In this document: positions 2,021-41,867 of the stretch, in pieces
How the letters are laid out: the number at the start of each line of letters is the position of its first letter
How positions within the stretch are numbered: position 1 is the first letter of the stretch
Assembly (NCBI GenBank): GCA_030602885.1
Contig: JAUVYV010000026.1
Location: 1 to 48,471 of the forward strand
Reading direction: 5' to 3'
From: Phycisphaerales bacterium
GTDB lineage: Bacteria; Planctomycetota; Phycisphaerae; Sedimentisphaerales; Anaerobacaceae
DNA length: 48,471 nt
Translations under genes and position numbers: made by a program
Notes under the pieces: model-generated
What the model was told of the DNA's origin: nothing
Database searches by the model: none
What the model saw: only the letters and a program-made list of their open reading frames with translations

Positions 2021-2167
2021 AGTACTTTCCCTTTTCTTTCAAAATCGTTGTTAAAGTTTCTGCAAAATACAATTTCAAGGGTACTTCTCAAAAATACTTC
2101 TCTTCATTTCTCCACCTAATTTCTCACCTCCTTTGCACCGTTGTGCCAAACTTTTCCGAAGCCCATT

Positions 2168-2335
2168 TCAGTTCATCGATTTATGTTTATCACGCTCTAA
2201 ACGTGCAATTGTCAACGGCCGCGATTGAAGCGCTGAAAATCGAGAAATGATTGCCCGAGCTGCGTCGCCAGGCGGCGATAGTGCAGGCGTACCACCCAAC
2301 CGGCTTCGCCATCTACCCTTTCCTTCATGGCTCAT
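2168..2335 (-). CDS. Possible 55-residue small protein with a strong Shine-Dalgarno
   Basis: An ATG at 2335 is preceded, five bases away, by GGAGGT (2346-2341 on the minus strand), one of the best ribosome sites in the window. The product is short, basic and Arg/Ser-rich, with no motif I recognise. It lies in the long leader of the secreted protein that starts at 2020, so it could be a leader peptide, a small independent protein, or chance. No codon-bias or homology argument backs it. Confidence 0.22.
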   Translation of the reverse strand: MSHEGKGRWRSRLGGTPALSPPGDAARAIISRFSALQSRPLTIARLERDKHKSMN

Positions 2336-2462
2336 ATTCCACCTCCATGAGGAATTCACAGATACCCCGCCCAACGGCTCTCTTGAGCGCGCTGTGAATG
2401 TTCGTTAAGGTCGACCGGGTAAGAAAACCGGGTGCAACTCCTCTTTCAAATTGCTGTGATCC

Positions 2463-2490
2463 TTTGTACGGGTATCCTGTGTCTTGTCAA
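2463..2490 (-). promoter_or_regulatory. Possible sigma-70 promoter for the gene starting at 2020
   Basis: On the minus strand TTGACA (2490-2485) is followed after 16 bases by TACAAA (2468-2463). The -35 is perfect and the -10 matches four of six bases. It would give a leader of about 440 nt, which is long, so a second promoter nearer the gene is possible. Confidence 0.3.
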
Positions 2491-2901
2491 GTGAATTTTA
2501 TGCTTTTTACCAATTTTTTTTGCAATTAGGCCCCGACCACTGTCCGCTGGAGTTTATCCCGGCCCGCCGGGGTTGACTGTTTATCCGCCGTAGGCGGACT
2601 CCCTTACTTCTCCCTTCTGACTTCTGACCTGCTCCTACTATTAGCTCAGCTTATACTACGCGCTCTCAAAATTCTCTCAAAACCCCCTTTTTTTCGCGAT
2701 TTTTTGCCTTTTCACAGCCATTTTTCGCAGATTTTTTCAATTTTTTTCAAACTTTCGCACGTTTCGCCAAATGCCAAAACCCGCCCCATTTGCCCCTCTC
2801 GACCCCAAATTCGCCCTTCCCGCCCATCCCTCCACCCCCCTCTTTGCCCCCCTCTAACCCCTTTTCCAAAACACTATAAGCTACGCTTATACTACCCCCC
2901 G

Positions 2902-4011
2902 CTACGCCAACGAGCAGAGAATCTCAACTCCCTGTCTCAGCTTCTCATCGCTCGTCGCATAGCTTATCCGAAAATGCGTGTCCTTCTCGCTGAACACGTT
3001 ACCCGGTATGATCAAAACGTTATTCGCAATCGCCTTTTTCACGAATTCCGTCGCATTGCCCCCCGGCGCCTTCACAAACGCATAAAACGCACCGCTCGGC
3101 TTCACTAATTCGAACTTGTCCTTCAGCCCCTCATACACCATATCTCGCTTCCGCCGGTATATCGCAACATATTCACTGACGTCATAATCCAGAGCCGCAA
3201 TCGCCGCCTTCTGAAAAGGCGTCGGTGCACAGACGAACGTGTACTGCTGAATCTTCGTCATCTCCTCGACAAGCCCCGCCAGCCCCTCGCTCGTCACCGC
3301 ATAACCTAATCGCCACCCCGTCATCGCACAGCTCTTACTGAACCCCCGCAGCAAAAGCGTCTTCTCATAATACCGCCCAATCGATGGACACCCGCCGTCG
3401 TAACAAAACTTGTCATATATCTCGTCGCTCATCACCACTATATCTCTCTCGGCCGCAACCTCCGCAAGTCTCTTTATCGCTTCCTCCGAATAAACCACTC
3501 CCGTCGGGTTACACGGCGAATTCACAACAATCAGCTTCGTCCTATCCGTAATAACCGCCTCGATTCTATCAACGTGCAGACCAAAATCAGGATATGTATC
3601 CACAAACACGCACCTGCCCCCCAGAAGATTCACCAGATGCTTGTAAATCACAAAATACGGGTCCGGCATTATCACCTCATCACCCGGATTGATAAGCGAC
3701 ATAAACGCCAACAGCAGCCCCCCGCTCACCCCGCTCGTTATCAGAACCGCCGGCTTTGCCCATCCGAACTCGGCCTTTACCCCCCCTGCCACCTTCTGCT
3801 TCAGCACCGAGTCCCCTGCCGTCTGCGAATACTTGTTCTGCCCTGCCCTTATCGCCTCAATCGCCTTCTCTTTAAGCTCCTCCGGCACATCGAAGTCCGG
3901 CTGGCCTATCGAAAAATTTATCGGGTCCTCCAATTCCGCCGCCAGCGCAAAGACCTTCCGTATCCCGCTCGAATCAATCAACTTCATCCTGTCCGCCAAA
4001 TACTCTTTCAT
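2902..4011 (-). CDS. PLP-dependent class I/II aminotransferase (aspartate aminotransferase-like)
   Basis: A 369-residue fold-type I aminotransferase of normal to slightly short length. Visible landmarks are the substrate loop near residues 35-38 (SIGQPDF), the NPTG motif at 168-171, the cofactor Asp196 and Tyr199 in SDEIYD, the Schiff-base Lys226 in GFSKSCAMTGWR, and the carboxylate-binding Arg348 in HFRIS. It transfers amino groups between an amino acid and a 2-oxo acid in the cytoplasm. The subfamily (Asp, aromatic or other donor) cannot be fixed by eye. It stands alone, divergent from the GH94 gene. Its + strand is extremely C-rich, unlike neighbouring genes, which fits the skew patches noted in the findings. 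Confidence 0.9.
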   Translation of the reverse strand: MKEYLADRMKLIDSSGIRKVFALAAELEDPINFSIGQPDFDVPEELKEKAIEAIRAGQNKYSQTAGDSVLKQKVAGGVKAEFGWAKPAVLITSGVSGGLLLAFMSLINPGDEVIMPDPYFVIYKHLVNLLGGRCVFVDTYPDFGLHVDRIEAVITDRTKLIVVNSPCNPTGVVYSEEAIKRLAEVAAERDIVVMSDEIYDKFCYDGGCPSIGRYYEKTLLLRGFSKSCAMTGWRLGYAVTSEGLAGLVEEMTKIQQYTFVCAPTPFQKAAIAALDYDVSEYVAIYRRKRDMVYEGLKDKFELVKPSGAFYAFVKAPGGNATEFVKKAIANNVLIIPGNVFSEKDTHFRISYATSDEKLRQGVEILCSLA

Positions 4012-4185
4012 GGCCTCAATCTCACAATAATTTGCCTATTAATTCATTTCCTCGGATAATCCTAAACCCAAAATCACGAATAGTAAACAGCAAATCATAC
4101 TCGCCCGTTCCCCTGTTTTCTGCTATCTTATCCGCAGCTGTTGTCACACCTGCTATATGGTTCGAGGATATGGAGACGACTAAAT

Positions 4186-6570
4186 ATGAGCAAACGCACA
4201 TCTGCAGGGCAGTCACCGGCCGGCTTTGCCGACAATGGCAAACGATATTTCCTGAACAGTCCGCTACTTGCCCCAACTGCTGACTCCTTCATCTTCAACC
4301 ACCGCATGCTCCTGCAGGTCACCTGTCGAGGATACGCCACGGCCCAGTTCATGCAGCCCGAAGTCGCCACATACACCTACCATCCTTTTATCGCAGCCAG
4401 GACATTCATACAGCCCGAACCACAGTACTACGCGCATCACCCGGGCCGCTTCTTTTACATTCGAGATGACAACACCGACCGGTTTTTCTCTGCACCGTAC
4501 GACCCCGTCCGTGCCGAGCTCGACAAATTCTCCTTCGCCCCAGGCCTCAGTGACATCCAATGGCTCGCCAAAAAAAACGGCATCGAAGTCAAGCTCCGCG
4601 TCACGATCCCTCGCGACGACATAGTCGAACTCTGGACCGCCACCGTTACAAACAGCTCTCGAAAACAGCGACGCATCTCTCTCTATCCTTACTTTCCAAT
4701 CGGATACTCATCGTGGATGAACATGGCCGGCACATACGATCAAAACCTCCGCGGTATCATCTGCTACTCCAAAACCCCCTATCAGTTGATGGAGGACTAC
4801 TTCAAGAACAAGGATTTGAAAGACCTCACGTACCTCTTGGCCGATATTATGCCCACTTCATGGCAGGCCAACCAGAAGAGCTTCGAAGGCCAAGGCGGTC
4901 CGACTTCACCCGACGACCTCAAGCGACCTCACCTCAGCAGGTCTGATGCGCGCTTCGAAATCCCCGCCGCGGTCCTGCAGTTCTCACGCACACTGGCACC
5001 GGGAAAATCCTTTCAGGTCAATCTCGCTTTCGGCCCGGCAAAAGACATCCCCGAAATCCGGCGTATCAGAACCAGGTACCTTAAGAAAAATGTCGCTGAA
5101 AAAGTAATTAAGAAAGTCAATGCCCTCCAAACCTCCAGGGCTGGCTGCATCATGATCGACACACCCGACGAAGTCTTCAACCACTTCATCAATCACTGGT
5201 TGCCGAGACAGATCAACTATCAAGCCCGAAGCAACCGCATGACAACCGACCCACAGACCCGCAACTACCTCCAGGATGCTATGGGTATGACCTTCCTTGA
5301 CCCGGATTTGTCACGCCGGATGTTTCGAACGGCCCTGAGCCGACAGCAGGCCAATGGTGCTATGCCCGAGGGCATCCTCCTGATAGAAGGTACTGAGCTC
5401 AAGTACATAAACCGTGTGCCCCACCGCGACCATTGCATCTGGACTGCACTCGCCCTCGCAGTTTACCTCAATGAAACTGCAGATACCACTTTCCTTCACG
5501 AAAAACTTCCGTTTGCCGACAGCACCGAATCCGCAAGCGTTTACAAGCACACATGTATGGGTCTCGATTGGCTCCTCAAAGACCGCTCCAGCCGAGGCCT
5601 GTCACTCATCGGCCAGGGCGACTGGTGCGACCCAATGAACATGGCCGGGTACAAGGGCAAGGGCGAATCTGCCTGGCTGACCGAAGCCCTGGCCTATGTA
5701 CTCCGGTGCTGGGCACCGTTCTGCAAATCCGTTGGCGACAAAACGCTTGCCGCTCGCTATCGCAAGAGCGCTGGAGCCATCAACGCTGCCCTTAATAAAT
5801 ATATGTGGGACGGCTCATGGTACGCCAGAGGAACCAGCGACTCAGGCAAGCGGTTCGGTATCAAACGCGACAAAGAGGGAAAGATCTTCCTCAACGCTCA
5901 AAGCTGGGCGGTCCTCTGCGCCGCTCCAACCGGCAAGCGACTTGAGAAGTGTATCGCTGCGGTGCAGAAGCATCTGGAAACACCGTTTGGCCCCATGACT
6001 CTCGCACCGGCCTACACCGAGATGCGTGAAGACATAGGCCGTGTCACTCAAAAGCATCCCGGCGTAAGCGAGAATGGTTCCGTTTACAGTCATGCCGCCC
6101 TCTTTTATGTCTTTGCACTCTATACTGCCCGGCGCACCGACCATGCGTTCAACGTTCTTCGCTCCCTGCTCCCCGGACCAGAGATTGCCTCTGTACGCCG
6201 GAGTCGCCAGCTCCCACTGTATCTGCCAACCTACTACCGCGGTGCGACCTTCCCCGCAACAGCCGGACGTTCAAGCCACCTCCCCAACACCGGCACCTTG
6301 TCATGGTATTACCGCACTGTCGTAGAAGTGCTTTTTGGCCTTCGCGGATGCGCCGAAGGATTACTCGTGGACCCGCAGTTGCCCAAACGCTTCAAGCGTG
6401 CCAACGTCAGACGCTATTTCCGCGGCGCCGTCTTCGACATACGGTTCCGCCGCTCCCCCACCGTTTCAGCACCGAAAGTCGTCCTCGACGGCAGAGAGCT
6501 ACCCCACAACCTGATCCCGAATCCTAAACATGGTGCGCACCATACCGTCGAAGTTACTCTGCCACGGTAA
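4186..6570 (+). CDS. GH94-family glycoside phosphorylase (cellobiose/chitobiose/cellobionate phosphorylase type)
   Basis: 794 residues, the usual length for GH94, with no signal peptide, so the protein is cytoplasmic. The start is ATG 4186, behind GGAG at 4171-4174; the frame is open further 5' (TTG 4141) but that start lacks a good ribosome site. Order of parts: N-terminal beta-sandwich (about 20-300, with NPHR-like FNHRMLLQV and WLA/PRDDIVELW stretches), a linker helix region, then an (alpha/alpha)6 catalytic barrel from about 345. GQGDWCDPMN (476-484) matches the family's DWND acid motif, with Asp482 as the likely general acid and Cys in place of the usual Asn. GSVYSHAALFYVFAL and PTYYRGATFPATAGRSSHLPNTGTLSW (split here only by naming) belong to the phosphate/substrate region. 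It would split a beta-disaccharide with phosphate to give a sugar-1-phosphate. The substrate is not determined. Confidence 0.82.
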   Translation: MSKRTSAGQSPAGFADNGKRYFLNSPLLAPTADSFIFNHRMLLQVTCRGYATAQFMQPEVATYTYHPFIAARTFIQPEPQYYAHHPGRFFYIRDDNTDRFFSAPYDPVRAELDKFSFAPGLSDIQWLAKKNGIEVKLRVTIPRDDIVELWTATVTNSSRKQRRISLYPYFPIGYSSWMNMAGTYDQNLRGIICYSKTPYQLMEDYFKNKDLKDLTYLLADIMPTSWQANQKSFEGQGGPTSPDDLKRPHLSRSDARFEIPAAVLQFSRTLAPGKSFQVNLAFGPAKDIPEIRRIRTRYLKKNVAEKVIKKVNALQTSRAGCIMIDTPDEVFNHFINHWLPRQINYQARSNRMTTDPQTRNYLQDAMGMTFLDPDLSRRMFRTALSRQQANGAMPEGILLIEGTELKYINRVPHRDHCIWTALALAVYLNETADTTFLHEKLPFADSTESASVYKHTCMGLDWLLKDRSSRGLSLIGQGDWCDPMNMAGYKGKGESAWLTEALAYVLRCWAPFCKSVGDKTLAARYRKSAGAINAALNKYMWDGSWYARGTSDSGKRFGIKRDKEGKIFLNAQSWAVLCAAPTGKRLEKCIAAVQKHLETPFGPMTLAPAYTEMREDIGRVTQKHPGVSENGSVYSHAALFYVFALYTARRTDHAFNVLRSLLPGPEIASVRRSRQLPLYLPTYYRGATFPATAGRSSHLPNTGTLSWYYRTVVEVLFGLRGCAEGLLVDPQLPKRFKRANVRRYFRGAVFDIRFRRSPTVSAPKVVLDGRELPHNLIPNPKHGAHHTVEVTLPR

Positions 6571-6894
6571 TACCTCTTGTCATCTCTGAAAGCGAGCGTC
6601 CACAGTTTTGACTTTTCTTGATAGGCTGTGTCACACACGGACTATCTGTAACTTTCGAACCAGGAGCGATTATGCCGTTCCCCAAAGACTCCGCCGAATG
6701 GTACTCCAAAATCATCGCCACAAACGCCCTCGCCCTCGACGACTCCTGAAACCTACACCCCATCCTCAGATAAACGCTACGACAGTACCATATTCCTCAG
6801 GCCAACAGAAAACACGCCCAAAAAACCAAAAAGCAAAGGGCTGACCACTATCAGCCAGCCCTGTCCGTCTGCCATGTGACGAATTATTAGATGA
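6571..6894. other. 324-bp convergent spacer with a 25-codon ORF
   Basis: Lies between the GH94 stop and the small-basic-protein stop. It contains ATG 6672 to TGA 6749 on the plus strand (25 residues, starting MPFPKDSAEWYSKII), preceded by AGGAG at 6662-6666. This could be a micro-ORF or the stub of a lost gene. The rest holds the terminator listed separately and nothing else I can support. Confidence 0.4.
6818..6856 (-). terminator. Rho-independent terminator of the small-basic-protein operon
   Basis: Read on the minus strand: GGCTGA (6856-6851), six-base loop, TCAGCC (6844-6839), then CC and a T-rich run out to about 6818. It sits 39 bp after the stop of the gene at 6895-7149. The stem also faces the incoming GH94 transcript. 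Confidence 0.6.
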
Positions 6895-7149
6895 CTATTC
6901 CTCCTTGCTGCTCTCAGTCTCAGTGGTTTCTACCGCCGCCTCGGCAGTTGCAGCTTCCGCTGCTTCCTTGGCCGCCGCTTTGCGACCCGCGTGGCTCTTG
7001 CGGTGTGCTACCTTCGGAAGCCCAAATACCGATTCGCCTTCCTGCCAGACCTCCTCATCCTTCAGCTTATCTATCCGCTCCGCACGCGACAATACATTTC
7101 GGTGCCGCTCAAGAGCGCCTTTTACCTTCAGTGAACGATCAATACTCAT
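6895..7149 (-). CDS. PVC 'small basic protein' family member
   Basis: 84 residues. The N-terminal about 50 match the small basic protein family known from Planctomycetes, Verrucomicrobia and Chlamydiae (TIGR04137 type): MSIDRSLKVKGALERHRNVL, then SRAERI.KL and VFGLPKV. The family's function is unknown; its spread across the PVC group makes it a lineage marker. Unlike the usual Lys-rich end, this protein finishes in an Ala/Glu/Thr-rich acidic tail (about 58-84), so the net charge is less basic than the name suggests. It lies 19 bp behind the membrane-protein gene at 7169-7888, probably in one transcript. Confidence 0.85.
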   Translation of the reverse strand: MSIDRSLKVKGALERHRNVLSRAERIDKLKDEEVWQEGESVFGLPKVAHRKSHAGRKAAAKEAAEAATAEAAVETTETESSKEE

Positions 7150-7168
7150 CCAACGTTTCTCCTAAAAC

Positions 7169-7888
7169 TCAATCATCAAATCGCATTCCAAACGCATCCC
7201 TGAAAAAGTTCGGCGCAAATGTCTCATATCCCTCGGGCGCCTTATAACCGGCCCCTAACTTTATTATCCTCTGTTTCGCCGAATAGCCATTTGTCCCTGC
7301 CCGGTTCGGGTTATCGTATTGGTTCCTGGTTACCAGATAATACCAATTATCCTTCTTTATTATTTCACTTTGAACGCCCATGCCGTCAAAATACTCTTTC
7401 ACCGGCTGAAGATGCGCAGGCACCTGATACATCTGTATCACTATCCTGTTCTTCCCTGTTGACTCCGCCGCTCCTTCGCCGCTCTTCGCAATCACCCCGA
7501 CGCCCACGCCCGGCTCAACCACTTCTACCCCCCCTGCCGACGCCGGGCCCCCCGCTGCCACCCCGACTCCTGCCGTCTGCCCCGAACCCATCTTCCGCCC
7601 GACCTGAACGCACAAAAGCAGCAGAACAACAAGACCGAGCACAACCGCCACCGCAAGCTGATAAGGCACCGAAAACTCGATCCTGCCCGAATTGAGCTGA
7701 AACACCCGGGGCTTGCGAGGCCACTCCAGACGCCGCGATACTGCTCCGCTAACGCCCTGTGCCCCTGCTGGGCTTTCATCCTCGGACCCCTTCGGATGCA
7801 ACCGCTCTAACGTCTTGCCTTGGCTCGACTTAGACCAACCCTTGCCTATTACCTCGTAAAGCGCCTTCTTTTTAGGATTCCGTGCCAT
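7169..7888 (-). CDS. Single-pass membrane protein with a SPOR-like C-terminal domain (unknown function)
   Basis: 239 residues. Basic N-terminus (MARNPKKK), cytoplasmic part to about 75, one transmembrane helix at about 76-95 (LAVAVVLGLVVLLLLCVQV), a Gly/Ala/Val-rich linker (about 100-145), then a compact domain at 147-239 beginning IVIQMYQVPAHLQPVKEYFDGMG. The beta-alpha pattern and an 'IQ.Y' start recall SPOR peptidoglycan-binding domains, but the match is loose and I would not name it. The topology fits an envelope protein with its C-terminus outside the cytoplasm. It is the first gene of a two-gene unit with the small basic protein. Confidence 0.6.
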   Translation of the reverse strand: MARNPKKKALYEVIGKGWSKSSQGKTLERLHPKGSEDESPAGAQGVSGAVSRRLEWPRKPRVFQLNSGRIEFSVPYQLAVAVVLGLVVLLLLCVQVGRKMGSGQTAGVGVAAGGPASAGGVEVVEPGVGVGVIAKSGEGAAESTGKNRIVIQMYQVPAHLQPVKEYFDGMGVQSEIIKKDNWYYLVTRNQYDNPNRAGTNGYSAKQRIIKLGAGYKAPEGYETFAPNFFRDAFGMRFDD

Positions 7889-8907
7889 AGACCAAAAAGC
7901 TCACTTCTCAAAAAATCCCGCAACCGGCACGCCAACGTTCATCTAACGCCCTGCTCAAGGTCAGCTCGCAAAATGCTCATCCACTTGTACTATATTCAAC
8001 TCTGAAATTCAATCGCAAAATTATGAATATTTGTGCGCTGCAACCCTGATTCGTCGAATCCCGCTTTTCGCTATGCTCGGCTGTACGCCATCTACAACGT
8101 CGCTCACCTGTATTATCTTCTCCGAGTTTTCCCGAATATAACGAACCGCCGCCGACACGTCTTTGTCCAATACTGCAAGTACGTCCGTTGATTGCCTCGT
8201 CACAACGTGTGTCGGCCGCACAACCACAGTCTGGCCTGACGACCTCGCCGCCCTACTACTGCATAAGCCAGGCCTCCACCACGCCCGTGATTGACAGCAG
8301 TATCGACAGTGTCTGGGACGATCGTCGATAACTCCTGGACCAATCCGAGCACCTTTGGAACTGCTGAGTTGCTGCCATAACCAGAGGTTATTTTTGTGTT
8401 GGCCCTTAGTGGGAGGAATTTCCAACGGCCAATAACATCAAGAGAAAGAGCACACGGGCACCTTCGTCCGCGGGCTCGCTCTTTAACGGTCAAAAAAACC
8501 GTCGGCATAGCCATTCCAAAACTGAGAACCACAAATCACATATCCTGCCCGCTCTCCCCGCTTGCCTGCCCTCGGGGTGAGCTTACCTGATATGCAAACC
8601 GAGGGGCCTCGACGCAAGCTGTGCAGAAACCGCAATCGCGAAACCATAATGCCCACCTGGCCTCGCAGCAGGGAACCCGGAGAATGACGGCCCTCTGTCG
8701 CCCCCCCCGGACTCCTCGGATACCCATCCGTAACCCGCACTCACAACCTGTAACCCGCGACCCCCAACCCTTTGCCAAGGTTCCAGTTCTTACGCCTTGT
8801 GCTCTTGTGACTTATGACTTTCGCACTTGTCCTCTCCCGTCTTCTGACTACTCTCTACCGCCTTACACATCCCTTTCACACACAAAGGCCAATATCCCAA
8901 ATTTACC
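7889..8907. other. 1-kb spacer holding regulator debris and low-complexity sequence
   Basis: Between the membrane-protein start (7888) and the rpmF promoter (8908). The only recognisable coding material is the XylR-like remnant at 8021-8233. Several short frames cross 8200-8780 on both strands but lack motifs. From about 8690 to 8880 the plus strand is C/T-rich with degenerate 'taacccgca' and 'cttctgac' words, like the pyrimidine tract near 2600. Confidence 0.55.
8021..8233 (-). pseudogene. Remnant of a XylR-type AraC-family transcriptional regulator
   Basis: In an open frame ending at 8021, about 45 residues read QTVVVRPTHVVTRQSTDVLA followed by VLDKDVSAAVRYIRENSEKIIQVSDVV. This is the hinge of XylR-like regulators (LacI-type sensor followed by an AraC helix-turn-helix), normally 'PP.GVVTRQSTDVLA..DP.VAAA.RFIRE'. 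Homology fades on both sides: the sensor domain is not readable upstream in any single frame, and the helix-turn-helix stops after about 20 residues (SIAKSGIRRIRVA). It is therefore a broken gene. Sugar-responsive regulators of this type commonly sit by carbohydrate genes in this lineage. Confidence 0.65.
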
Positions 8908-8936
8908 TTGACATTCCGCCTCCCATAGACTATCTA
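8908..8936 (+). promoter_or_regulatory. Sigma-70 promoter of the rpmF-plsX-fabH operon
   Basis: TTGACA (8908-8913), 17-base spacer, TATCTA (8931-8936). Predicted start of transcription is near 8943, giving a leader of about 50 nt that contains GGAG nine bases before the rpmF ATG. Confidence 0.7.
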
Positions 8937-8993
8937 AAAGGTTTCAGGTTGTCAGAGAACGCAAATACCTGTGTAGATTTGGAGTACTTGTGA

Positions 8994-9179
8994 ATGTTAC
9001 CGGTAAAGAAAACCAGCAAAGCCAGAACGAGAACTCGCCGAAGCCACCATCGGCTTGGGGCGACTAATTATTCCGTCTGCAAAAAGTGCGGCCAGGCAAA
9101 ACTCCCGCACGCCGCCTGTCAAAGCTGCGGGTATCTCAATCCAAAGATTACACTCGACCTCGGCAAGGAATCCGAATAG
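8994..9179 (+). CDS. rpmF: Large-subunit ribosomal protein bL32
   Basis: 61 residues, normal length for bL32. Starts MLPVKKTSKARTRTRRSHH, the variant of the usual AVPKRKTSKSR opening, and has a complete zinc ribbon: Cys29/Cys32 (CKKC) and Cys42/Cys45 (CQSC). It binds 23S rRNA near the peptidyl-transferase exit of the large subunit. First gene of the unit; plsX begins 12 bp after its stop, and rpmF-plsX-fabH is a widely conserved order linking ribosome and lipid synthesis. Confidence 0.95.
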   Translation: MLPVKKTSKARTRTRRSHHRLGATNYSVCKKCGQAKLPHAACQSCGYLNPKITLDLGKESE

Positions 9180-9191
9180 GGGTTGGACAAA

Positions 9192-10256
9192 ATGCGAATT
9201 GCCATCGACGCCATGGGCGGTGATAACGCCCCTGACGAAATTATTGCGGGCGCCCTCGAATCGATTGAAGCGCTCTCAGAAAACGACGAACTCATACTTG
9301 TCGGCCCTCGCCTCGTCATCGAGCCGCGTCTCCCGGAAAAACGGGCACGAGAAGGCATTCTCTCAATCGTCGATGCACCCGACGTCATCGCCATGGACGC
9401 CTCGCCTATCGACTCGCTCCGCAAAAAGCCCAAAAGCTCCATCGCCATCCTCGCAAAGCTCGCCAAACTGGGGCGCGCCGATGCCGTCGTCTCCGCCGGG
9501 AACACCGGCGCCTGCGTCGCCGCTTTCCAGATGCGAATGAGAAAGCTGCCCGGCGTCAACCGACCCGGCATCGCCGTGGTCTTCCCTACCTTCAAAGGCC
9601 CCGTCACCATCTGCGACGTCGGAGCAAACATAGCGTGCAAACCTATAAATCTTTACCAGTACGCTATCATGGCCCGATTGTATTCGCAGCATCTTTTTGG
9701 AATAGAGAATCCGCGCGTGGGGCTTATGAGCATCGGCTCCGAGGACGCCAAGGGCAACGAGGTTGTGAAAAAGGCGAGGGACCTGCTGAAAACGAACGAG
9801 AACCTGAACTTCATCGGAAATATCGAAGGCAGGGACATCTTCACGGGCGTTTGTGACGTTGCTATCTGTGACGGGTTTGTGGGCAACGTTGTTTTGAAGC
9901 TGACCGAAGGTCTGGTGGACGGTCTGTTCAATGCCATCAAGCAGGAGCTGATGCACGAGAAACCTCGGCTGGCGAGAAAGTTCAAGCCCATCATGCAGAG
10001 GATATACAAGAAACACGACTACAACACGTACGGCGGAGCACTGCTGCTCGGGATTAACGGCACGGCACTGATATGCCACGGTTCGAGCGAGGCCAGGACC
10101 GTCAGGAACGCGATAGTCGCCGCCAGAAAATACCACTGTGAAAAAATAAACGACAAGATTATCGAGTATCTCTCGGGAACCGAGTGCGGCGAGGACTCGC
10201 AAACAACCGGCTCGGAGAAAGTTGCGTTAGGAACCACGGATGGACAAGCCAGGTAA
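9192..10256 (+). CDS. plsX: Phosphate acyltransferase PlsX
   Basis: 354 residues from ATG 9192 (MRIAIDAMGGDNAP); an in-frame TTG at 9183 is less likely. PlsX turns acyl-ACP into acyl-phosphate for phospholipid synthesis at the membrane face. Family signatures visible: AIDAMGGD.AP at the start, SAGNTGA near 105, GA N region (CDVGAN) near 140, and GFVGNVVLK near 230. Its 3' end overlaps fabH by 17 bp, so the two are translationally coupled. Composition changes abruptly inside the gene: by hand count 9361-9420 has 25 C and 12 G, while 9721-9780 has 12 C and 24 G. Confidence 0.95.
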   Translation: MRIAIDAMGGDNAPDEIIAGALESIEALSENDELILVGPRLVIEPRLPEKRAREGILSIVDAPDVIAMDASPIDSLRKKPKSSIAILAKLAKLGRADAVVSAGNTGACVAAFQMRMRKLPGVNRPGIAVVFPTFKGPVTICDVGANIACKPINLYQYAIMARLYSQHLFGIENPRVGLMSIGSEDAKGNEVVKKARDLLKTNENLNFIGNIEGRDIFTGVCDVAICDGFVGNVVLKLTEGLVDGLFNAIKQELMHEKPRLARKFKPIMQRIYKKHDYNTYGGALLLGINGTALICHGSSEARTVRNAIVAARKYHCEKINDKIIEYLSGTECGEDSQTTGSEKVALGTTDGQAR

Positions 10257-11253
10257 CTCTCATCTTCACCCCTATCGAGCGGTCATCACGGGGCACGGCT
10301 CGTATGCGCCGGCCAAGGTACTGACCAACGAAGAGCTCGCGAAAATGGTCGATACGAGCGATGAGTGGATTACCACGCGAACCGGAATCAAGACCCGGCA
10401 TATAACTACAGAAGACGAAACGACCGCGATGCTGGCCACCGAGGCGGCAAAATTAGCGCTGGCTGAGGCAAAGCTCAAGCCGGAAGACCTCGAGATTATT
10501 ATCGTCGCGACGATAACTCCCGAGATGGTCTTTCCCTCGACGGCCTGCTTCGTCCAGAAGAATCTGGGCGCCAAAAAGGCCTGGGTGTTCGATTTGGCCG
10601 CTGCCTGCAGCGGGTTCGTGTACGGCATCTCCATCGTCCAGCAGTTCCTCGAGGCCGGCAGATTCAACAATGCCCTGGTCATCGGCGCCGAGACGCTTAC
10701 GAAGATCACCAACTTCAAAGACCGCACAAGCTGTATCCTCTTCGGCGACGCCGCGGGTGCCGTAGTACTCGAGCGAAAACCGGATGGTTTGAGCGGAGTA
10801 ATCTACAGCACGATGCACTCGGACGGCGAGTACTGGCGGACGCTGAACTGCCAGGCCTACGGCTCGCGTCACCCCTCGCCAAAGCCCCTCGATAACCCCG
10901 ATATGGTATTTATGGAAATCAAGGGCAGAGAAGTCTATCAGCAGGCCGTGCGAAGAATCGTCGAGGTACTCGAGGCCTGCCTGGACCACTGTGGCCTTAC
11001 CACCGACGATATCAAGATGGTCATCTCGCACCAGATGAACGCGAGGATTATAGAGTCCGCAGGAAAACGGCTCAAGCTGCCGCCTGAAAAGGTTTTTATA
11101 AACATCAACGAGTACGGCAATACCTCCGCTGCTTCGGTGCCCCTGGCTTTCGACGAATGCGTCCGAAAGGGACTCATCAAAAGAGGCGACCTCGTCGTCT
11201 TCGTCGCATTCGGAGCAGGCCTCACCTGGGGAGCAAATGTCATTCGCTTTTAA
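10240..11253 (+). CDS. fabH: 3-oxoacyl-ACP synthase III (KASIII)
   Basis: 337 residues. FabH condenses acetyl-CoA with malonyl-ACP to open each round of fatty-acid synthesis. The catalytic triad is readable as Cys123 (AAACSGF), His264 (ISHQMNARI) and Asn294 (NEYGNTSAAS). DEWITTRTGI near 41-50 and the C-terminal GAGLTWGA are typical. His264 is preceded by Ser where many FabH proteins have Pro. It begins inside plsX and ends the operon; a recR stub follows in the same frame after the stop. Confidence 0.95.
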   Translation: MDKPGNSHLHPYRAVITGHGSYAPAKVLTNEELAKMVDTSDEWITTRTGIKTRHITTEDETTAMLATEAAKLALAEAKLKPEDLEIIIVATITPEMVFPSTACFVQKNLGAKKAWVFDLAAACSGFVYGISIVQQFLEAGRFNNALVIGAETLTKITNFKDRTSCILFGDAAGAVVLERKPDGLSGVIYSTMHSDGEYWRTLNCQAYGSRHPSPKPLDNPDMVFMEIKGREVYQQAVRRIVEVLEACLDHCGLTTDDIKMVISHQMNARIIESAGKRLKLPPEKVFININEYGNTSAASVPLAFDECVRKGLIKRGDLVVFVAFGAGLTWGANVIRF

Positions 11254-11547
11254 TCACCGCCCTTTACCGCCGAGGTCGAAAGCAAAACCAAACAATGCAA
11301 AATCTGCTATAATCTGGCCGAAACCGACACCTGTCAAATCTGCTCCGATACCCGCCGCGACAAATCACAAATCTGCGTCGTCGAACAGCCCAGGAATGTG
11401 GTGACGCTCGAGAAAACCGGTGCCTGCAGATGGGTCTATCACGTCCTCGGCGGCCATATCGCCCCGCTTGCCATTGCTCGACACACCCGCCTGCGCGCAC
11501 ATAAGGACCAGAATTGCGTTTTCCTAATCAAGCGGCTTTATCCGTAA
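11254..11547 (+). pseudogene. recR: Truncated recR remnant
   Basis: Directly after the fabH stop, in the same frame, a start-less open stretch reads from about 11272: EVESKTKQCKICYNLAE, then TCQIC, RRDKSQICVVEQPRNV, LEKTG and YHVLGGHIAPL. That is the middle of RecR: the four-Cys zinc finger (CKIC...CQIC, all four Cys kept) and the start of the Toprim domain. The N-terminal helix-hairpin-helix and the rest of Toprim (after about 11442) are missing; the frame then drifts to a stop at 11545. A full recR of about 200 codons is expected elsewhere in the genome. The tail overlaps the convergent gene ending at 11524. Confidence 0.75.
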
Positions 11548-13019: not shown

Positions 13020-14327
13020 TTAGAGCTGCCACGGGCTTCTCATTGCCCGCGATAACATTTGGTTTGCCTCTGAGTCATTAACGAATCTTTCGTTTCCCGG
13101 GTCCCAGCGCAGCTTTCTGCCCAGTTTCAGGGCGATATTGCCCAGGTGGCAGATAGTGACCGAACGGTGCGCAACCTCAGGTGGCGCTATAGTATCGCGC
13201 CTTGTTTTTACACAGTCAATGAAGTTTCTGTGGTGGTCGTCGCTTTGGTACAGATGGACCTCATCGGCACCAATTCTCGAATTCAACAGCGATTTTGGCT
13301 CGGCATCGATATACGAGCGAGCCATAACCCAGCCGTTGGTGCCCTCAAAGCGAATGCCCTGGTCCATTTTTGCAATGTCACGTGTGGCGCATACCAGTTT
13401 TACGCCGTTTTCATAAGTGTAGTGCACCTCGAAGCTTGTGGCTGTATCCCACAGACCGTCTCGCGGGAACCGGCCTGTGCCTTCTATTTCAACGGGCCCT
13501 GTGTGTTCGGTATCGTTGCCCCACTGGGCAAGGTCGTTATCATGAGCCCCAAGGTCGGTCATAACCCCACCGGCATAGTCGGATATGTACCTGAAGGAGC
13601 CGTGGCATCGCCGTTTTGTATAAGGGGCCCACGGAGCAGGCCCAAGCCATAAGTCGTAGTCGAGACCGTCAGGAACGGGCATTGTGGCTTGTGGGGCGAT
13701 GGCGCGTCCTGTTGGGACACAGGTGCGGATGGTGTGGAGCCGGCCGATTCGGCCGTTGCGGACAAGCTCACAGGCAAAGCGGGCGGCTTGACCCGATCGC
13801 AACTGCGTTCCGGCCTGAAACACACGATTGTATTGCTTGATTATGTTACAGAGCGTACGACCCTCGGCTATCGTCTTAGAGAGGGGTTTTTCGCAGTAGA
13901 TGTCTTTACCGGCTCTGGCTGCCGCGATTGAGATCGGCACATGCCAGTGGTCCGGAGTGGCTATCAATACGGTGTCGATATCGTCTCTTTCAAGCAGGTC
14001 GCGAAAATCGTTGTAAGCTGCGCAGCTGCCGTAGTTTGCCTTGACGACAGCAGATTCGTAATGCTCTTCAACTTCGTTCTTGGCGCGTTTGCAGTGGGCG
14101 ATATCGACGTCGCATACGGCGACGATTTGGACGTCGCCGAACTTTAGGAAACCCCTCATATCACTGAGGCCCATATTGTTTGTACCGATGCAGCCCATAG
14201 TTATCCGGGCGCTCGGGGCGGTCGATTTGGCCAGACCGAGTGCGAATGAACGGACTACTAAGGGTACGGATACGGCGGCGACGGCGGTGCGTTTCAGAAA
14301 ATCACGTCTCGACAGCTTCTCTTTCAT
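13020..14327 (-). CDS. Tat-exported Gfo/Idh/MocA family oxidoreductase
   Basis: 435 residues. Twin-arginine signal LSRRDFLKR at 5-13, so it should be exported folded with its nicotinamide cofactor bound, like glucose-fructose oxidoreductase. N-terminal Rossmann fold (GCIGTNNMG at 45-53), the catalytic Lys147 in YCEKPL, then a C-terminal alpha/beta domain with DLGAHDNDLAQWG carrying the second catalytic His/Asp pair. It ends in MRSPWQL, a variant of a C-terminal signature shared by nine of the ten exported copies. Substrate unknown; neighbours point to sugar C3 oxidation. No clear ribosome site precedes ATG 14327. Confidence 0.9.
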   Translation of the reverse strand: MKEKLSRRDFLKRTAVAAVSVPLVVRSFALGLAKSTAPSARITMGCIGTNNMGLSDMRGFLKFGDVQIVAVCDVDIAHCKRAKNEVEEHYESAVVKANYGSCAAYNDFRDLLERDDIDTVLIATPDHWHVPISIAAARAGKDIYCEKPLSKTIAEGRTLCNIIKQYNRVFQAGTQLRSGQAARFACELVRNGRIGRLHTIRTCVPTGRAIAPQATMPVPDGLDYDLWLGPAPWAPYTKRRCHGSFRYISDYAGGVMTDLGAHDNDLAQWGNDTEHTGPVEIEGTGRFPRDGLWDTATSFEVHYTYENGVKLVCATRDIAKMDQGIRFEGTNGWVMARSYIDAEPKSLLNSRIGADEVHLYQSDDHHRNFIDCVKTRRDTIAPPEVAHRSVTICHLGNIALKLGRKLRWDPGNERFVNDSEANQMLSRAMRSPWQL

Positions 14328-21143: not shown

Positions 21144-22463
21144 CTATAAGTGCCATGGGCTGCGCATGGGTCTTGTGAGCAGATTATTTGCCTCCTCGTC
21201 ACCGACGAATCGTTCTTGAACGGTGTCCCATTTCAGCTTGCGTTTCAGGCGGACAGAGGTTTCGGCAATCATTCCGAGGAATGAGGCATTGTGACCGGCC
21301 TCGACCGGCGAGACCGGGTCTTTTCGCGTCTTGACACATCTGAGGAAATCCACCCTGTGGTCGTTTGATTCGTAAAGCCGATTGTCGGAGGATTTAAGCT
21401 GCACCTTCAGCAGGGAAGCAGGCTCTGCCCGGATTCCCGGACGATCTACATGTACCCAGCCTTTATCCCCATAGAAAGCGCACCCACACTCCTCAGTACC
21501 CTCATCCGCACTCGTGTAAACCATCTTTAATCCGTTTTCGTAACGAAACTCGCCTTTCCAGTCAAAGATATTGTCCGTCAGCCCGTCATTACGATAAGTC
21601 CCTGTAAACTCAAGCTCACACCGCTGATTTGCGACATCCGGGCAACCCCAGTTGGCGATATCCAGATGATGCACGCCCCAATTCACAATGAATCCCGCGC
21701 AATAGTCCCAGTTCAGATACCAGTCGATGCCGTAAACCCTGCCACCGTTGAAGGGCTTTTTCGGAGCCGGTCCGAGCCACATGTCCCAGTCAAAGCCGGG
21801 CGGAATTGGCTCCTCAACCGGTGGATTCAGGTATTCACGCTTGTACACCGGTCCAGGCGCACCGACTTCGACTGTATGGATCTTGCCGAGATATCCACTG
21901 CGCGCCAACTGACAGGCAAACCGAAAGTTTCTCTCGGACCTCTGCTGAGTACCGGTCTGAAACACTATCCCGTACTTGCGGACTGCATCGCGTATTGCCT
22001 GACTCTCTGCCACGGCGACCCCCAGCGGTTTTTCACAGTACATATCCTTGCCGGCCTGCGCCGCTGCAACTGCGATAAGGGCGTGCCAGTGGTCCTGCGT
22101 GGCGATGACAACGGCGTCGATATCGTCGCGAGCGAGCAGCTCGCGGAAGTCGTTGTACATAGCGCAGTCCGTATTGCCGTATTTCTCATCGACTATTCTT
22201 TTGGCCTTTTCACGTTCACTCTGCTGAACGTCGCAGACCGCAACCATCTGTGCGACGGGAATACCCAGAAAATCCTTCACCTTCCATGTCCCCTGCCCGC
22301 CGACACCGATTGAGCCGATAGTAATACGTTCGCTCGCCGCGACAGCCCCGTCTGCGCCAAGAGCCGACGCCGAAACTATGTAAGGGAATCCAACCGCACC
22401 GGCCAGCATTACGCCGGAGCCTTTGAGAAAACTTCGTCTGTCAAAACTTCTTTTCGCATTCAT
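21144..22463 (-). CDS. Tat-exported Gfo/Idh/MocA oxidoreductase (tandem copy B)
   Basis: 439 residues; twin Arg at 9-10 (DRRSFLKGSG), same position as in copy A. Rossmann loop IGVGGQGTWK, YCEKPLGVAV, NWGVHHLDIANWG, end RPMRSPWHL. A Cys pair (EECGCAF) stands where copy A has ENDGCLF. Only 21 bp separate it from copy A downstream, and 40 bp from the ThuA-like gene upstream, so the three are probably one transcript. On the + strand the gene is C-rich from about 21450 upward and more balanced below that. Confidence 0.92.
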   Translation of the reverse strand: MNAKRSFDRRSFLKGSGVMLAGAVGFPYIVSASALGADGAVAASERITIGSIGVGGQGTWKVKDFLGIPVAQMVAVCDVQQSEREKAKRIVDEKYGNTDCAMYNDFRELLARDDIDAVVIATQDHWHALIAVAAAQAGKDMYCEKPLGVAVAESQAIRDAVRKYGIVFQTGTQQRSERNFRFACQLARSGYLGKIHTVEVGAPGPVYKREYLNPPVEEPIPPGFDWDMWLGPAPKKPFNGGRVYGIDWYLNWDYCAGFIVNWGVHHLDIANWGCPDVANQRCELEFTGTYRNDGLTDNIFDWKGEFRYENGLKMVYTSADEGTEECGCAFYGDKGWVHVDRPGIRAEPASLLKVQLKSSDNRLYESNDHRVDFLRCVKTRKDPVSPVEAGHNASFLGMIAETSVRLKRKLKWDTVQERFVGDEEANNLLTRPMRSPWHL

Positions 22464-25746: not shown

Positions 25747-27090
25747 TTACAGCCGCCAGGGGCTTCGCATAGTTCGCGTTAACATTCGATTAGCCTCACC
25801 GTCGTTAATGAATTGTTCCCTCACCGCATCCCATCTCAACTTCCTTCCAAGGCGCAGGGCGATATTTCCCTGATGGCAGATTGTATCCGAATGGACCGCC
25901 ACGTCAACGGGGCAGATTGTCTGCCTTTTTGTCCTGACAGCATCGAGGAAATTACGCATGTGGTCGTTGCTGCGATATAGTTTTATTTCGTCGGGGCCGA
26001 TGACGGTTTTAGTCAGCGATTGCGGGTGGGTGTGGAGTCCACGTCGGCTGACGAAGACCCAGCCGTCGGTGCCGAGAAAGAGGATACCAAGACCTTCGTG
26101 CAGCCAGAACTGAGGGGCCTTTTGCCTGGCTGTTTTGGTGTCCATATGAACGAGTGTAACGCCGTTGGCGTATTTGTGTCTTACCTCAAATTGTATTGCC
26201 GTGTCGGTCAGGCCGTCGGCGGGAATGACTCCTGTTCCTTCTATTTCAACCGGTGCCGTATCGTCGGTGCCGTTGCCCCACTGGGCGATATCGACGTGGT
26301 GTATTCCCCAGCCGGAGATATGTCCCATTGCGTAGTCACTTATGACGTACCAGGCGCCGGCGCCTTCGGTGCGCGGACCGCAACGTGCGAAGCTGTACGG
26401 CGCCCGGGGGGCGGGGCCAAGCCAGAGGTCATAGTTGAAACCTTTCGGTATCGGTTCGGGCTTTGAATTGGGGACATACCAGCTCGGAATCGAGCCGACC
26501 ATAATCGTCCGGAGCTTGCCTATCCGCTGGTTGCGAACAAGCTCGCAGGCCTGGCGAAACTTCTCGTCGCTGCGCTGCTGGGTGCCGAACTGAAATACCA
26601 CGCCCGAACGATGTATTTCTTTTCGCAGCGCCTGGTTTTCATCGAAATAGACACTCATTGCCTTTTGCAGATAGACGTGTTTTCCATTGCGTGCCGCTTC
26701 AAGGCCGACCAGGACGTGCCAGTGGTCGCAGGTTGCGACGACGACGCCGTCGATGTCGCTTCTGGCGAGCAGGTCGCGAAAATCGGTGTATGCGGCGCAG
26801 TCGCTGTTTCCGTATTTTCTGTCAACGATCGCCTTGGCTTTCGTTTGTCGGATGGGCCAGATGTCACACACGGCTGCAAGGTGGACATCGGGATATCCGA
26901 GGAGCTGATGGACGTGGCCTGTACCCATACCTCCCACGCCGATAGAGCCGATTACGAGGCGATTGCTGGGCGCTATGGTTCCGGCTTTGCCCAGGGCAGA
27001 CGACGATACCACGTATGGAAACCCAACAGCGCCTGCTATGACTTTTGTCGCTTTTCTTAACACCGAACGACGACTGATAGTTTCCGCCAT
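25747..27090 (-). CDS. Tat-exported Gfo/Idh/MocA oxidoreductase with altered EKP motif
   Basis: 447 residues when started at ATG 27090 (MAETISRRSVLRKATK), which puts the twin Arg at 7-8. The frame is open 34 codons further but that would run into the upstream gene, whose stop is at 27095-27097, only four bases away. Rossmann loop IGVGGMGTGH. The usual YCEKP reads YLQKAM here: Lys143 stays but both flanking residues of EKP are changed. The preceding DHWH segment also has Cys for Pro (TCDHWH). Second site GWGIHHVDIAQWG, end RTMRSPWRL. The changes suggest altered chemistry or a binding role. The gene is tightly coupled to the four-domain protein upstream. Confidence 0.88.
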   Translation of the reverse strand: MAETISRRSVLRKATKVIAGAVGFPYVVSSSALGKAGTIAPSNRLVIGSIGVGGMGTGHVHQLLGYPDVHLAAVCDIWPIRQTKAKAIVDRKYGNSDCAAYTDFRDLLARSDIDGVVVATCDHWHVLVGLEAARNGKHVYLQKAMSVYFDENQALRKEIHRSGVVFQFGTQQRSDEKFRQACELVRNQRIGKLRTIMVGSIPSWYVPNSKPEPIPKGFNYDLWLGPAPRAPYSFARCGPRTEGAGAWYVISDYAMGHISGWGIHHVDIAQWGNGTDDTAPVEIEGTGVIPADGLTDTAIQFEVRHKYANGVTLVHMDTKTARQKAPQFWLHEGLGILFLGTDGWVFVSRRGLHTHPQSLTKTVIGPDEIKLYRSNDHMRNFLDAVRTKRQTICPVDVAVHSDTICHQGNIALRLGRKLRWDAVREQFINDGEANRMLTRTMRSPWRL

Positions 27091-39661: not shown

Positions 39662-41692
39662 TCAGGTTTTGAGAATATTCCTGCCTACCATAGATGACGG
39701 GACTCCCAACCCGAATTCGGTCAGAATTGTCGGCGCCAGATCGATCAGAGCCGGGCTGCTCGCGGCGATGGGTTTATTGCTGAACAGGACACCGGGCACC
39801 TCTGCCGCATCCGCACAATGGTCCGCACTCCAGGCAGAGTCGTTATCGTAGAGGATTTTACCACCCATACCGCCCAGACACGTATCCCAGGAAGCCCTGT
39901 AGTCGCGCCTGTATCCAATGATAAGGTCGGGAGCCAGTGCGGTAGCCGGGCCCGAATAATCCTTATCTGCACGATGGGCTTTGTGAATGACACGCCTGCC
40001 ATTTTCGTCGGTAACCGCTTCGAGCTTGGCCGCCAGCTCATCTACGTAGAATTCATACTCGGCGCCCGGCTCGACCGTACCGTATATTTCTCTGCCCTTT
40101 AGATTGATATACAACCCGTTTATCCCCAGTCCGTACGCCTTTGTTCTGGCCCAGTCAACGTCGGCCAGTACCGATCTTGCATCCGGCGGATAAAGGTAAC
40201 CGTTTTCGCGAAGCCACGTATTGACGTTGAACTGGCGCTTGAAATTGGCAAAGCCGTGGTCGCTCATAACAAAGATGGTCGCCTTGTCGCCGTACCGGCT
40301 CAGAATCATTCCCAGAACCTCATCCATCTTTCCGTAAAGCTGCTGGATATCGCCGAAGTATTTCTTGGCCTCACCCGAAGAACGAACGGGGTGTTTTTCA
40401 TCCGAGTCCCACCAGAACATATGCGATTGCAAATCGGTGCTGGAGAAGTAGAAAAACAGCAGCCCATCGTCATAGTTCTCGAGCGCATAGTCAAGCAACG
40501 CAAGCCTTTCCTGCAAAACATACGTGGCCTGGCTGCGAAACTCCTCATCGGTGAAGACCTTGTTCGAAAGCGCCTTGTGGTCTTCCTGAAACCCCGTTGT
40601 GTAGAACAAATCCAGTCGGTTCGAGACTTCCTTTATGAACTCGGGCGGCTCAGTCAGCTTAAGGGCCGAATCCGATGGGTCGCTGTTGACAGGGCTCACA
40701 TAAAGCCGAAAGTTCTCTCTGACCTGCTGGAGATAGAAGCGACATATCCCGCTGATGTGTTTGTTAGGTCCAGGAATCGCCATCTCGAAGTCCAGCTTTA
40801 TCCACCTGCTCCACTGGCCCTGCCTGAGAAGGATTCTGTGCTTCTGAATTTCAATAAGGGCCGCGTTTGCATCGGTATCGCGGTGGACGGTGAAATCGAC
40901 GGCGGTATCCTCGGGTTTTACCAGGAATGTGTTTGGTGGGCCGATGATTTTTCCGTGCGCGGTTTCATTCTCGAAAAACAACATAGAGCGTTTCCCCCCA
41001 CCCTCGTCCTTTGTGCGAAGCGGCCCGTCTTCGGAGAAGTGCTGATACGTCCCGTACGTCCCCAACATATCAGGTGTCCCCATCCCTGCAAGGCATCGGT
41101 GGTAGCCGTATTGGGATTCGCTTGGAGGATAGTTGCTCGGCAGGTCGTAGAACGTCGAGTATATCTTCGCCTCGTCGAGATAATCCCAGAAGGGCGTCCC
41201 CTGCCGTTTCAAAACGGTGGCGGGCGGCTTATGATTGAAAGGCCAAAAATCAAGCTGCAGCCTGTAGTCGCCGACCTCCCAGTAGCCGGCGCCCGGCAGC
41301 GTCTCGGCCATCGCAAAGAACGGCACACACTGCTTTTCAGGATGACGGTGGATGAAATCAAAGATGCCATGCGAACCGGGACCGGCGCCGTTGATAAAGT
41401 TGGCCCAGGCAACGGGGCTTTGAGGCGGAATGCTCGTGCCCAGAACGCTGAAACCGCCCTGCCTGCGAAGCTTCTCGAAGTTGGGCAGTTTGCCCGCATC
41501 CATCAGACGCTCCGACAGCCGAGGGTCCATCCCGTCAACACCTACTACGATGACTCTCTTGCCTTTGCCGCGAACCCTGCCGGTGCCTCCATAAACAGGA
41601 TTCAGAGCCAGTCCCGCCCCGAACGCGACAGCAGCCGCTGCCGAACCTTTGAGAAACTCTCTGCGATCAATTTTATTTCTCTTACCTGCCAT
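39662..41692 (-). CDS. Tat-exported AlkP-superfamily type I phosphodiesterase
   Basis: 676 residues. Tat signal DRREFLKGSAAAAVAFGAG at 9-27. The nucleotide-pyrophosphatase/phosphodiesterase fold is visible as the metal-binding VIVVGVDGMDPRL near 48-60, the nucleophile region IPPQSPVAWANFINGAGPG (Ser where many members have Thr), FVMSDHGFANF (Asp-His metal ligands) and SADHC near the end. The second half of the protein carries the usual N.WLRENGYL and YGLGINGLYINLKGRE segments of this group. Substrate unknown: phosphodiesters or headgroups on exported glycans or lipids are possible. Its paralogue is at 41868-44000; about 175 bp of sulfatase debris lies between them. Confidence 0.88.
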   Translation of the reverse strand: MAGKRNKIDRREFLKGSAAAAVAFGAGLALNPVYGGTGRVRGKGKRVIVVGVDGMDPRLSERLMDAGKLPNFEKLRRQGGFSVLGTSIPPQSPVAWANFINGAGPGSHGIFDFIHRHPEKQCVPFFAMAETLPGAGYWEVGDYRLQLDFWPFNHKPPATVLKRQGTPFWDYLDEAKIYSTFYDLPSNYPPSESQYGYHRCLAGMGTPDMLGTYGTYQHFSEDGPLRTKDEGGGKRSMLFFENETAHGKIIGPPNTFLVKPEDTAVDFTVHRDTDANAALIEIQKHRILLRQGQWSRWIKLDFEMAIPGPNKHISGICRFYLQQVRENFRLYVSPVNSDPSDSALKLTEPPEFIKEVSNRLDLFYTTGFQEDHKALSNKVFTDEEFRSQATYVLQERLALLDYALENYDDGLLFFYFSSTDLQSHMFWWDSDEKHPVRSSGEAKKYFGDIQQLYGKMDEVLGMILSRYGDKATIFVMSDHGFANFKRQFNVNTWLRENGYLYPPDARSVLADVDWARTKAYGLGINGLYINLKGREIYGTVEPGAEYEFYVDELAAKLEAVTDENGRRVIHKAHRADKDYSGPATALAPDLIIGYRRDYRASWDTCLGGMGGKILYDNDSAWSADHCADAAEVPGVLFSNKPIAASSPALIDLAPTILTEFGLGVPSSMVGRNILKT

Positions 41693-41697
41693 CTTTC

Positions 41698-41856
41698 TTA
41701 ACGCCGGGAAACTTCATAATCAACGGCACACGAATCAGCTCCTGATGCAGCCCATAGACAAGGTCCCACTGCACCTGCCAGTCCCGCGGACAGCGCGCCG
41801 CTTAGCAGGTCCCGGCGACTAATCGTGCCTTTTGCTCTTCGGCTTCCGGCTGCCAT
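41698..41856 (-). pseudogene. Remnant of a Tat-exported sulfatase
   Basis: Two pieces in two frames. From ATG 41856 a clear Tat signal is readable (GTISRRDLLSGALSAGLAGA), but the frame then degenerates and stops at 41698. In the +1 frame, from about 41775 to 41685, the text reads LHQELIRVPLIMKFPGVKKDGR, the conserved C-terminal-half segment of sulfatases ('YEE.IRVPLIM..PG'). The start of a sulfatase thus appears joined to an internal piece with most of the enzyme, including the sulfatase Cys motif, deleted. The fragment overlaps the start of the downstream phosphodiesterase gene. Confidence 0.6.
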
Positions 41857-41867
41857 AGAGAAACCTT

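Follow-up and report, generated by a model that had tools for sequence, protein, structure and literature searches.

The strand-composition switch inside plsX is real, is stronger than had been shown by hand count, and is part of a striking wider pattern. Skew within the gene at the 180- and 360-nt scales exceeded synonymous shuffles, as did a changepoint test (p=0.00005). As sampled, the chromosome consists of blocks that differ in strand polarity, in the manner of a patchwork. The window, here meaning the whole 48,471-nucleotide stretch that was analysed, is one contig (C72) of a 3.2-Mb Sedimentisphaerales-like MAG (G000) consisting of 128 contigs. The sampled part of this genome amounted to about 20%. 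By PlsX, its closest named relatives were MAGs of Sedimentisphaerales, Phycisphaerae and other Planctomycetota, at up to approximately 79% identity. One chromosome labelled Desulfobacterales (CP070694.1, locus L034) encodes a PlsX 75% identical to that of the window; this label may be wrong.

The switch within plsX and the adjoining tract

The genes concerned lie in the order rpmF, plsX, fabH. The features of this region were as follows.

8994..9179, plus strand: rpmF (ribosomal protein L32), upstream of plsX; Pfam Ribosomal_L32p, E=3.3e-18
9183..10256, plus strand: plsX, longest open reading frame, TTG start with ATG at codon 4; intact; Pfam FA_synthesis, E=1.4e-94
9183..9629, plus strand: 5' part of plsX, strongly C-ending; the genome's C dialect fits it 29 nats better than the neutral one
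9630..10620, plus strand: neutral-dialect tract of about 1 kb, from the 3' part of plsX to the 5' part of fabH, by the two-edge dialect model
10240..11253, plus strand: fabH, intact; Pfam ACP_syn_III and ACP_syn_III_C; holds the right tract edge
11268..11468, plus strand: recR in partial second copy (internal fragment), just downstream of fabH; model positions 49-116 of 196

Over its 201 bases, the recR fragment shared 83% identity with the intact recR region at G000:C93:25400-25600. Upstream of rpmF, approximately 1 kb (7900-8990) was without a convincing gene. The open reading frame at 8021-8437 (minus strand) resembles what we take to be the end of a XylR-type regulator; a Pfam profile search gave no match.

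A sequence-only reading of the window had reported, from hand counts, 25 C/12 G on the plus strand at 9361-9420 and 12 C/24 G at 9721-9780. These counts were correct. The swing in G minus C between the two 60-nt windows was 25, and synonymous shuffles within plsX gave a mean of 15.3 (p=0.017). The protein sequence of PlsX therefore accounts for most of the swing, and this pair of windows taken alone is poor support for the switch. At the 180- and 360-nt scales, the range and variance of plsX skew were above those of 2000/2000 synonymous shuffles (p=0.0005). A synonymous-permutation changepoint test placed the break at codon 146, near 9620 (p=0.0002 with 5000 permutations; p=0.00005 with 20,000 permutations), and skew at four- plus six-fold codons changed from -0.60 before the break to +0.18 after it. 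A Fisher test of G against C at the chosen break, uncorrected for break selection, gave p=2.9e-6. Several codon families shifted jointly at this point. CTC:CTG changed from 9:2 to 2:11, GTC:GTG from 11:1 to 2:4, and GAA:GAG from 7:1 to 3:11, while AGG rose from 0 to 6 occurrences and ATA from 1 to 7. As had been stated in the earlier reading, the product is a normal PlsX despite the switch, with an intact reading frame and a match to its Pfam family. The gene is single-copy, with one match in its own genome.

Dialect tables were derived from the remainder of the sampled genome. Codons 1-146 of plsX were best matched by the genome's most C-ending dialect (29 nats over neutral) and codons 147-357 by the neutral dialect (26 nats over C). 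The neutral dialect continued through codons 1-101 of fabH, and the C dialect resumed from codon 102. A C-neutral-C model gained 53.1 nats, compared with 33.8 for one break and 7.1 for none. Its edges were placed at 9630 (support 9615-9678) and 10621 (support 10543-10630), both in conserved stretches (percentiles 0.90 and 0.85). The right edge, tested within fabH alone by permutation, was non-significant (p=0.17). The change of character within plsX is abrupt and beyond chance, as in a mosaic gene (p=0.00005, two edges). To the left and to the right of the plsX edge alike, the dialect is one of the genome's own, and neither side was foreign in composition by dialect fit; a foreign origin of 9630-10620 was therefore unsupported. 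The N and C halves of PlsX gave no supported conflict of relatives, with best identities of 81% (N) and 80% (C) to different genomes. A donor allele for the tract was not found among 60 relatives, a set that contained no genome of the same genus.

PlsX genes of other genomes were compared at 72 loci, from which four were removed (three partial plsX genes and one second match). None of the remaining 68 changed significantly in the same direction near codon 144, and a conserved functional switch in PlsX was rejected. The best change in the plsX of L041 fell at codon 142 and ran in the opposite direction (nominal p=0.024). The plsX of L100 had a strong change at codon 64.

Strand polarity across the window, the genome and its relatives

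Within-gene skew variance over 28 genes of the window, with the first 60 codons of each gene removed, was 3672, compared with 2640+/-233 in synonymous shuffles, and 0/300 shuffles reached the observed value. Skew within these genes is thus more variable than among shuffled synonymous codons. The following edges and blocks were located elsewhere in the window.

2021..9629, no strand assigned: block with C-rich plus strand, whatever the gene direction; 1-kb skew between about -0.1 and -0.38 over the stretch of 2-9 kb
2697..2902, no strand assigned: dispersed repeat near the left edge of the C-rich block; 91% to G000:C109 1-207
13185..13338, no strand assigned: edge from C to G (plus strand) inside a GFO/IDH/MocA gene; -0.38 to +0.42, LR 70
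21276..21354, no strand assigned: edge from G to C inside a GFO/IDH/MocA-like gene; +0.42 to -0.21, LR 64
25897..25972, no strand assigned: edge from C to G inside a GFO/IDH/MocA-like gene; -0.21 to +0.51, LR 28

Segment skew in the C-rich block was -0.51 at sites of four-fold families up to 9.6 kb. The repeat at C109 1-207 also matched C55 68893-69097 (93%). By tblastn, the gene holding the edge at 21276..21354 is a paralogue of that holding the edge at 13185..13338. A run of related GFO/IDH/MocA-type oxidoreductase genes occupies 13020-35866 (minus strand), and single members of it match 12-13 places (2-kb bins) in the sampled DNA of the same genome. Multi-copy dispersed repeats make up both contig ends (1-406 and 48078-48471) and are the probable reason why the assembly broke there.

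The main observation on plsX was confirmed; the further examples offered in minus-strand genes fared unevenly. The patch border proposed near 25960 corresponds to the real edge at 25897-25972. Near 30790 a nominal best change was obtained at 30699 (p=0.024), although segmentation gave no edge there. The patch proposed near 28610 was not borne out (gene-level p=0.12). That codon choice shifts inside genes beyond synonymous-shuffle expectation held for plsX and more widely in the genome.

Coding-strand skew at four- plus six-fold codons was measured in 360 genes and had a standard deviation of 0.41, compared with 0.10 from sampling. Skews of neighbouring genes were correlated at r=0.77 when on the same strand (n=235) and r=-0.71 when on opposite strands (n=115). 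Intergenic skew tracked the flanking genes (r=0.69-0.78) in divergent (n=47), convergent (n=36) and co-directional (n=103) gaps. Polarity is thus a property of the DNA strand and not of codon selection. The earlier proposal, that patches had different mutational or recombination histories, stands in so far as the patches look like pieces with distinct strand histories. Its framing at the level of codon choice does not stand, since coding skew is opposite in sign between genes on opposite strands and intergenic DNA takes the skew of the genes beside it. GC and TA skew at four-fold sites were correlated (r=0.53).

Segmentation of 0.56 Mb of the genome yielded 75 edges. The step was 0.5 or more at 46 of these, and strong polarity flips occurred at approximately 65 per Mb of segmented DNA. 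The shortest segments measured a few hundred bases and the longest about 25 kb. Block edges were often localised to tens or a few hundred bases, with a median support of 165 bases (n=21) in one direction and 140 bases (n=14) in the other. About half of the strong edges fell within open reading frames. With margins of 180 and 60 bases, 16/46 strong edges were strictly internal, compared with 23.1+/-3.2 under random placing (P=0.02). Edges favour gene ends, yet many are internal. For all step sizes, 16 strictly internal edges were found in a non-overlapping gene set, compared with 4.1+/-1.4 in eight within-gene synonymous shuffles. Of 25 strong intragenic edges, 16 lay in genes found at one locus only within the sampled DNA. 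Intragenic edges were not generally in conserved stretches (mean percentile 0.54, z=0.57) by a test that covered 16/81 edges, the other 65 being dropped for having too few homologues.

Genes were called as longest open reading frames. Some changes in early codons are start-site artefacts, and many untrimmed within-gene changes fell in the first 70 codons; trimmed tests were therefore used. The first 60 and last 10 codons were removed, and genes over 2500 aa or under 240 aa were left out. The proportion of genes with a trimmed within-gene change at p<.005 was 5.9% in the genome of the window (304 genes), 9.1% in G001 (252) and 7.6% in G057 (304), these two being single-contig relatives. It was 2.1% in G011 (233 genes), 2.6% in G017 (193) and 1.8% in E. 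coli (55). At BH q<.05, there were 8 genes in the genome of the window, 22 in G001, 16 in G057, 0 in G011, 2 in G017 and 0 in E. coli. The largest trimmed change of the genome's own sample (z=7.2) was in a DnaA-type gene on contig C109. This gene (41625-43154, minus strand) is the second of its type, and its ATPase part (about 42276-42684) is opposite in strand dialect to the rest. A 5577-aa open frame was also observed in the same genome (L118 616-17349, from contig C85).

The patchwork was present in both single-contig relatives, with neighbour skew correlations (same/opposite strand) of 0.66/-0.70 in G001 and 0.77/-0.63 in G057. The pattern was weaker in G011 (0.70/-0.43). G017, of the same family, had no pattern (0.04/0.00; skew standard deviation 0.13). 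Orthologue-like partners were available for 98 of 406 genes, and coding polarity across genera was shared in 27/35 strongly skewed pairs, which are non-independent. At near-relative loci of 85-92% identity, 500-base skew profiles agreed in three pairs (r=0.78, 0.95 and 0.86), this agreement being partly due to shared sequence, and no conclusion is based on it. A weakly skewed pair at 87% identity gave r=0.03. The idea that skewed blocks derive from acquired, accessory DNA was unsupported; genes with close relatives in the sampled DNA were equally or more skewed than those lacking them.

Contrasts between two replichore arcs were non-significant in G057 (p=0.24) and G001 (p=0.35), the genome of the window being in contigs. 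A two-replichore reading of G057 near 1.4 Mb was dropped after a non-significant permutation test. The dnaA genes were not at clear skew switches. Coding skew of the ribosomal operon was near zero in 30 genomes and was uninformative as a marker of orientation. Dispersed repeats lay within 400 bases of 13/57 edges, compared with 6.9+/-2.6 expected (P=0.024; one of several tests), and 44/57 edges were without a repeat inside this distance. Repeat enrichment at edges is weak. At C19 8882-9066 and C55 74949-75132 (96%), the same repeat was found in opposite orientation, each copy beside an edge.

Origin of the blocks

The reading that we put forward, and hold at about even confidence, is that each block preserves a strand bias acquired in an earlier orientation, that rearrangement has since reshuffled the blocks, and that short homologous exchanges have also taken place inside genes. 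As in the conventional view, strand-asymmetric mutation would give each block its skew while it stood in one orientation relative to replication. Blocks would then be inverted or moved, partly through recombination between dispersed repeats. Where an edge lies inside an intact single-copy gene such as plsX, a short tract would have been exchanged by homologous recombination with an allele whose strand history differed and which belonged to this lineage or a close one. The exchange was added for plsX because an inversion cannot end within an intact single-copy gene, a step that we infer. Sharp edges of both polarities, together with native dialects on either side of the plsX edge, favour joined pieces over a gradient. 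The block mosaic is further suggested by the strand-level skew, the correlated GC and TA skews, the two-edge tract with its edges in conserved stretches, the within-gene changes beyond synonymous shuffles, the repeats near edges, the partial recR copy by fabH, and the presence of the pattern in G001 and G057 with its absence in G017. Several points stand against it. No donor, supported tree conflict or significant replichore trend was found, the dnaA genes lay at no clear switch, and most edges had no repeat within 400 bases. Polarity partly shared across genera is not needed under pure shuffling. Intragenic edges were not generally in conserved stretches, and the fabH edge alone was non-significant.

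Rearrangement by inversions and moves, acting without homologous exchange, is an unlikely explanation, under which intragenic edges would be start-site errors, gene fusions or recombination between paralogues. The many untrimmed changes in early codons, some of them start-site artefacts, fit it, as do the several window edges within a paralogous gene array and the repeat enrichment near edges. It is opposed by the switch at codon 146 of a gene present once, by the strong intragenic edges in single-locus genes of the sampled DNA, and by the excess of changes that persisted in trimmed genes. The tract might instead be an artefact of metagenome assembly, with conserved motifs in plsX and fabH as the points at which the assembler fused alleles from related organisms. 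The MAG is indeed in short contigs and both tract edges are in conserved stretches, but both dialects are native to the genome and within-gene changes were equally common in single-contig G001 and G057, so we consider such a chimera improbable here. That single-contig genomes also have the pattern makes short-read chimerism less likely as an explanation for it in general.

Polarity could also be made in place, if replication or another strand-asymmetric process ran in different directions from block to block, through many local initiation sites or recombination-driven replication, with edges as changes of direction. This would agree with a strand-level skew that includes intergenic DNA, with edges that can fall inside genes, and with the lack of a replichore-scale trend in two single-contig relatives. 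The density of strong flips, however, would require on the order of a hundred start zones. G-to-C edges were as sharp as C-to-G edges, whereas termination zones should presumably be diffuse, and edges mildly avoid gene interiors; production in place is rated as quite improbable. We think it very improbable that some Sedimentisphaerales-type chromosomes consist of many short, sharp-edged, strand-polar units of locally fixed direction and not of two replichores, with the plsX edge as one unit boundary. Selection on codon choice varying along genes (translation ramps, expression, mRNA structure) could be matched to the many untrimmed changes within the first 70 codons and to the near-zero skew of ribosomal-operon genes. 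It is strongly disfavoured by intergenic DNA of the same polarity. Opposite-strand neighbours also carry opposite coding skew, and the codon-146 switch was not common to the PlsX genes of other genomes. This explanation is barely credible.

Known systems and meaning

Local GC-skew reversals are used as a record of gene inversion (PMC6220195), this use is criticised (PMC9098844), and skew inflexions within a replichore are treated as possible misassembly at long inverted repeats (PMC7111523). The present pattern resembles the inversion record (PMC6220195) in having local polarity flips that are independent of gene direction and are taken as a memory of orientation. It differs in its dense flips, large amplitude and undetected replichore background, and in having many edges inside intact genes, which plain inversion leaves unexplained. 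Mosaic genes made by homologous recombination, a general kind (for example PMC4437187), are alike in being intact genes with parts of two histories, a tract of about 1 kb and edges in conserved stretches. Here, the tract was recognised through strand dialect and not through similarity to a donor. Misassembly inflexions are likewise skew inflexions inside a replichore, but as described in PMC7111523 they delimit few large segments at long perfect repeats; here edges were many, mostly repeat-free within 400 bases, and also present in single-contig relatives. A search at the level of titles and the starts of abstracts, in which subscription literature was thinly covered, found no published account of such a skew patchwork for this clade. 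Local skew reversal itself is known; the density of flips, the undetected replichore background and the edges in intact genes are unusual.

In this clade, skew may be a misleading guide both to the correctness of a MAG and to replication origins. Were polarity to arise in place, these bacteria would differ in their replication pattern from what is usual for bacteria. If the strand dialect is a memory of orientation, a genome of strong polarity in which no replichore background is detectable keeps a gene-by-gene log of the rearrangements and exchange tracts in it, legible without a reference genome, and rearrangement and recombination would then be readable from single MAGs of uncultured bacteria.
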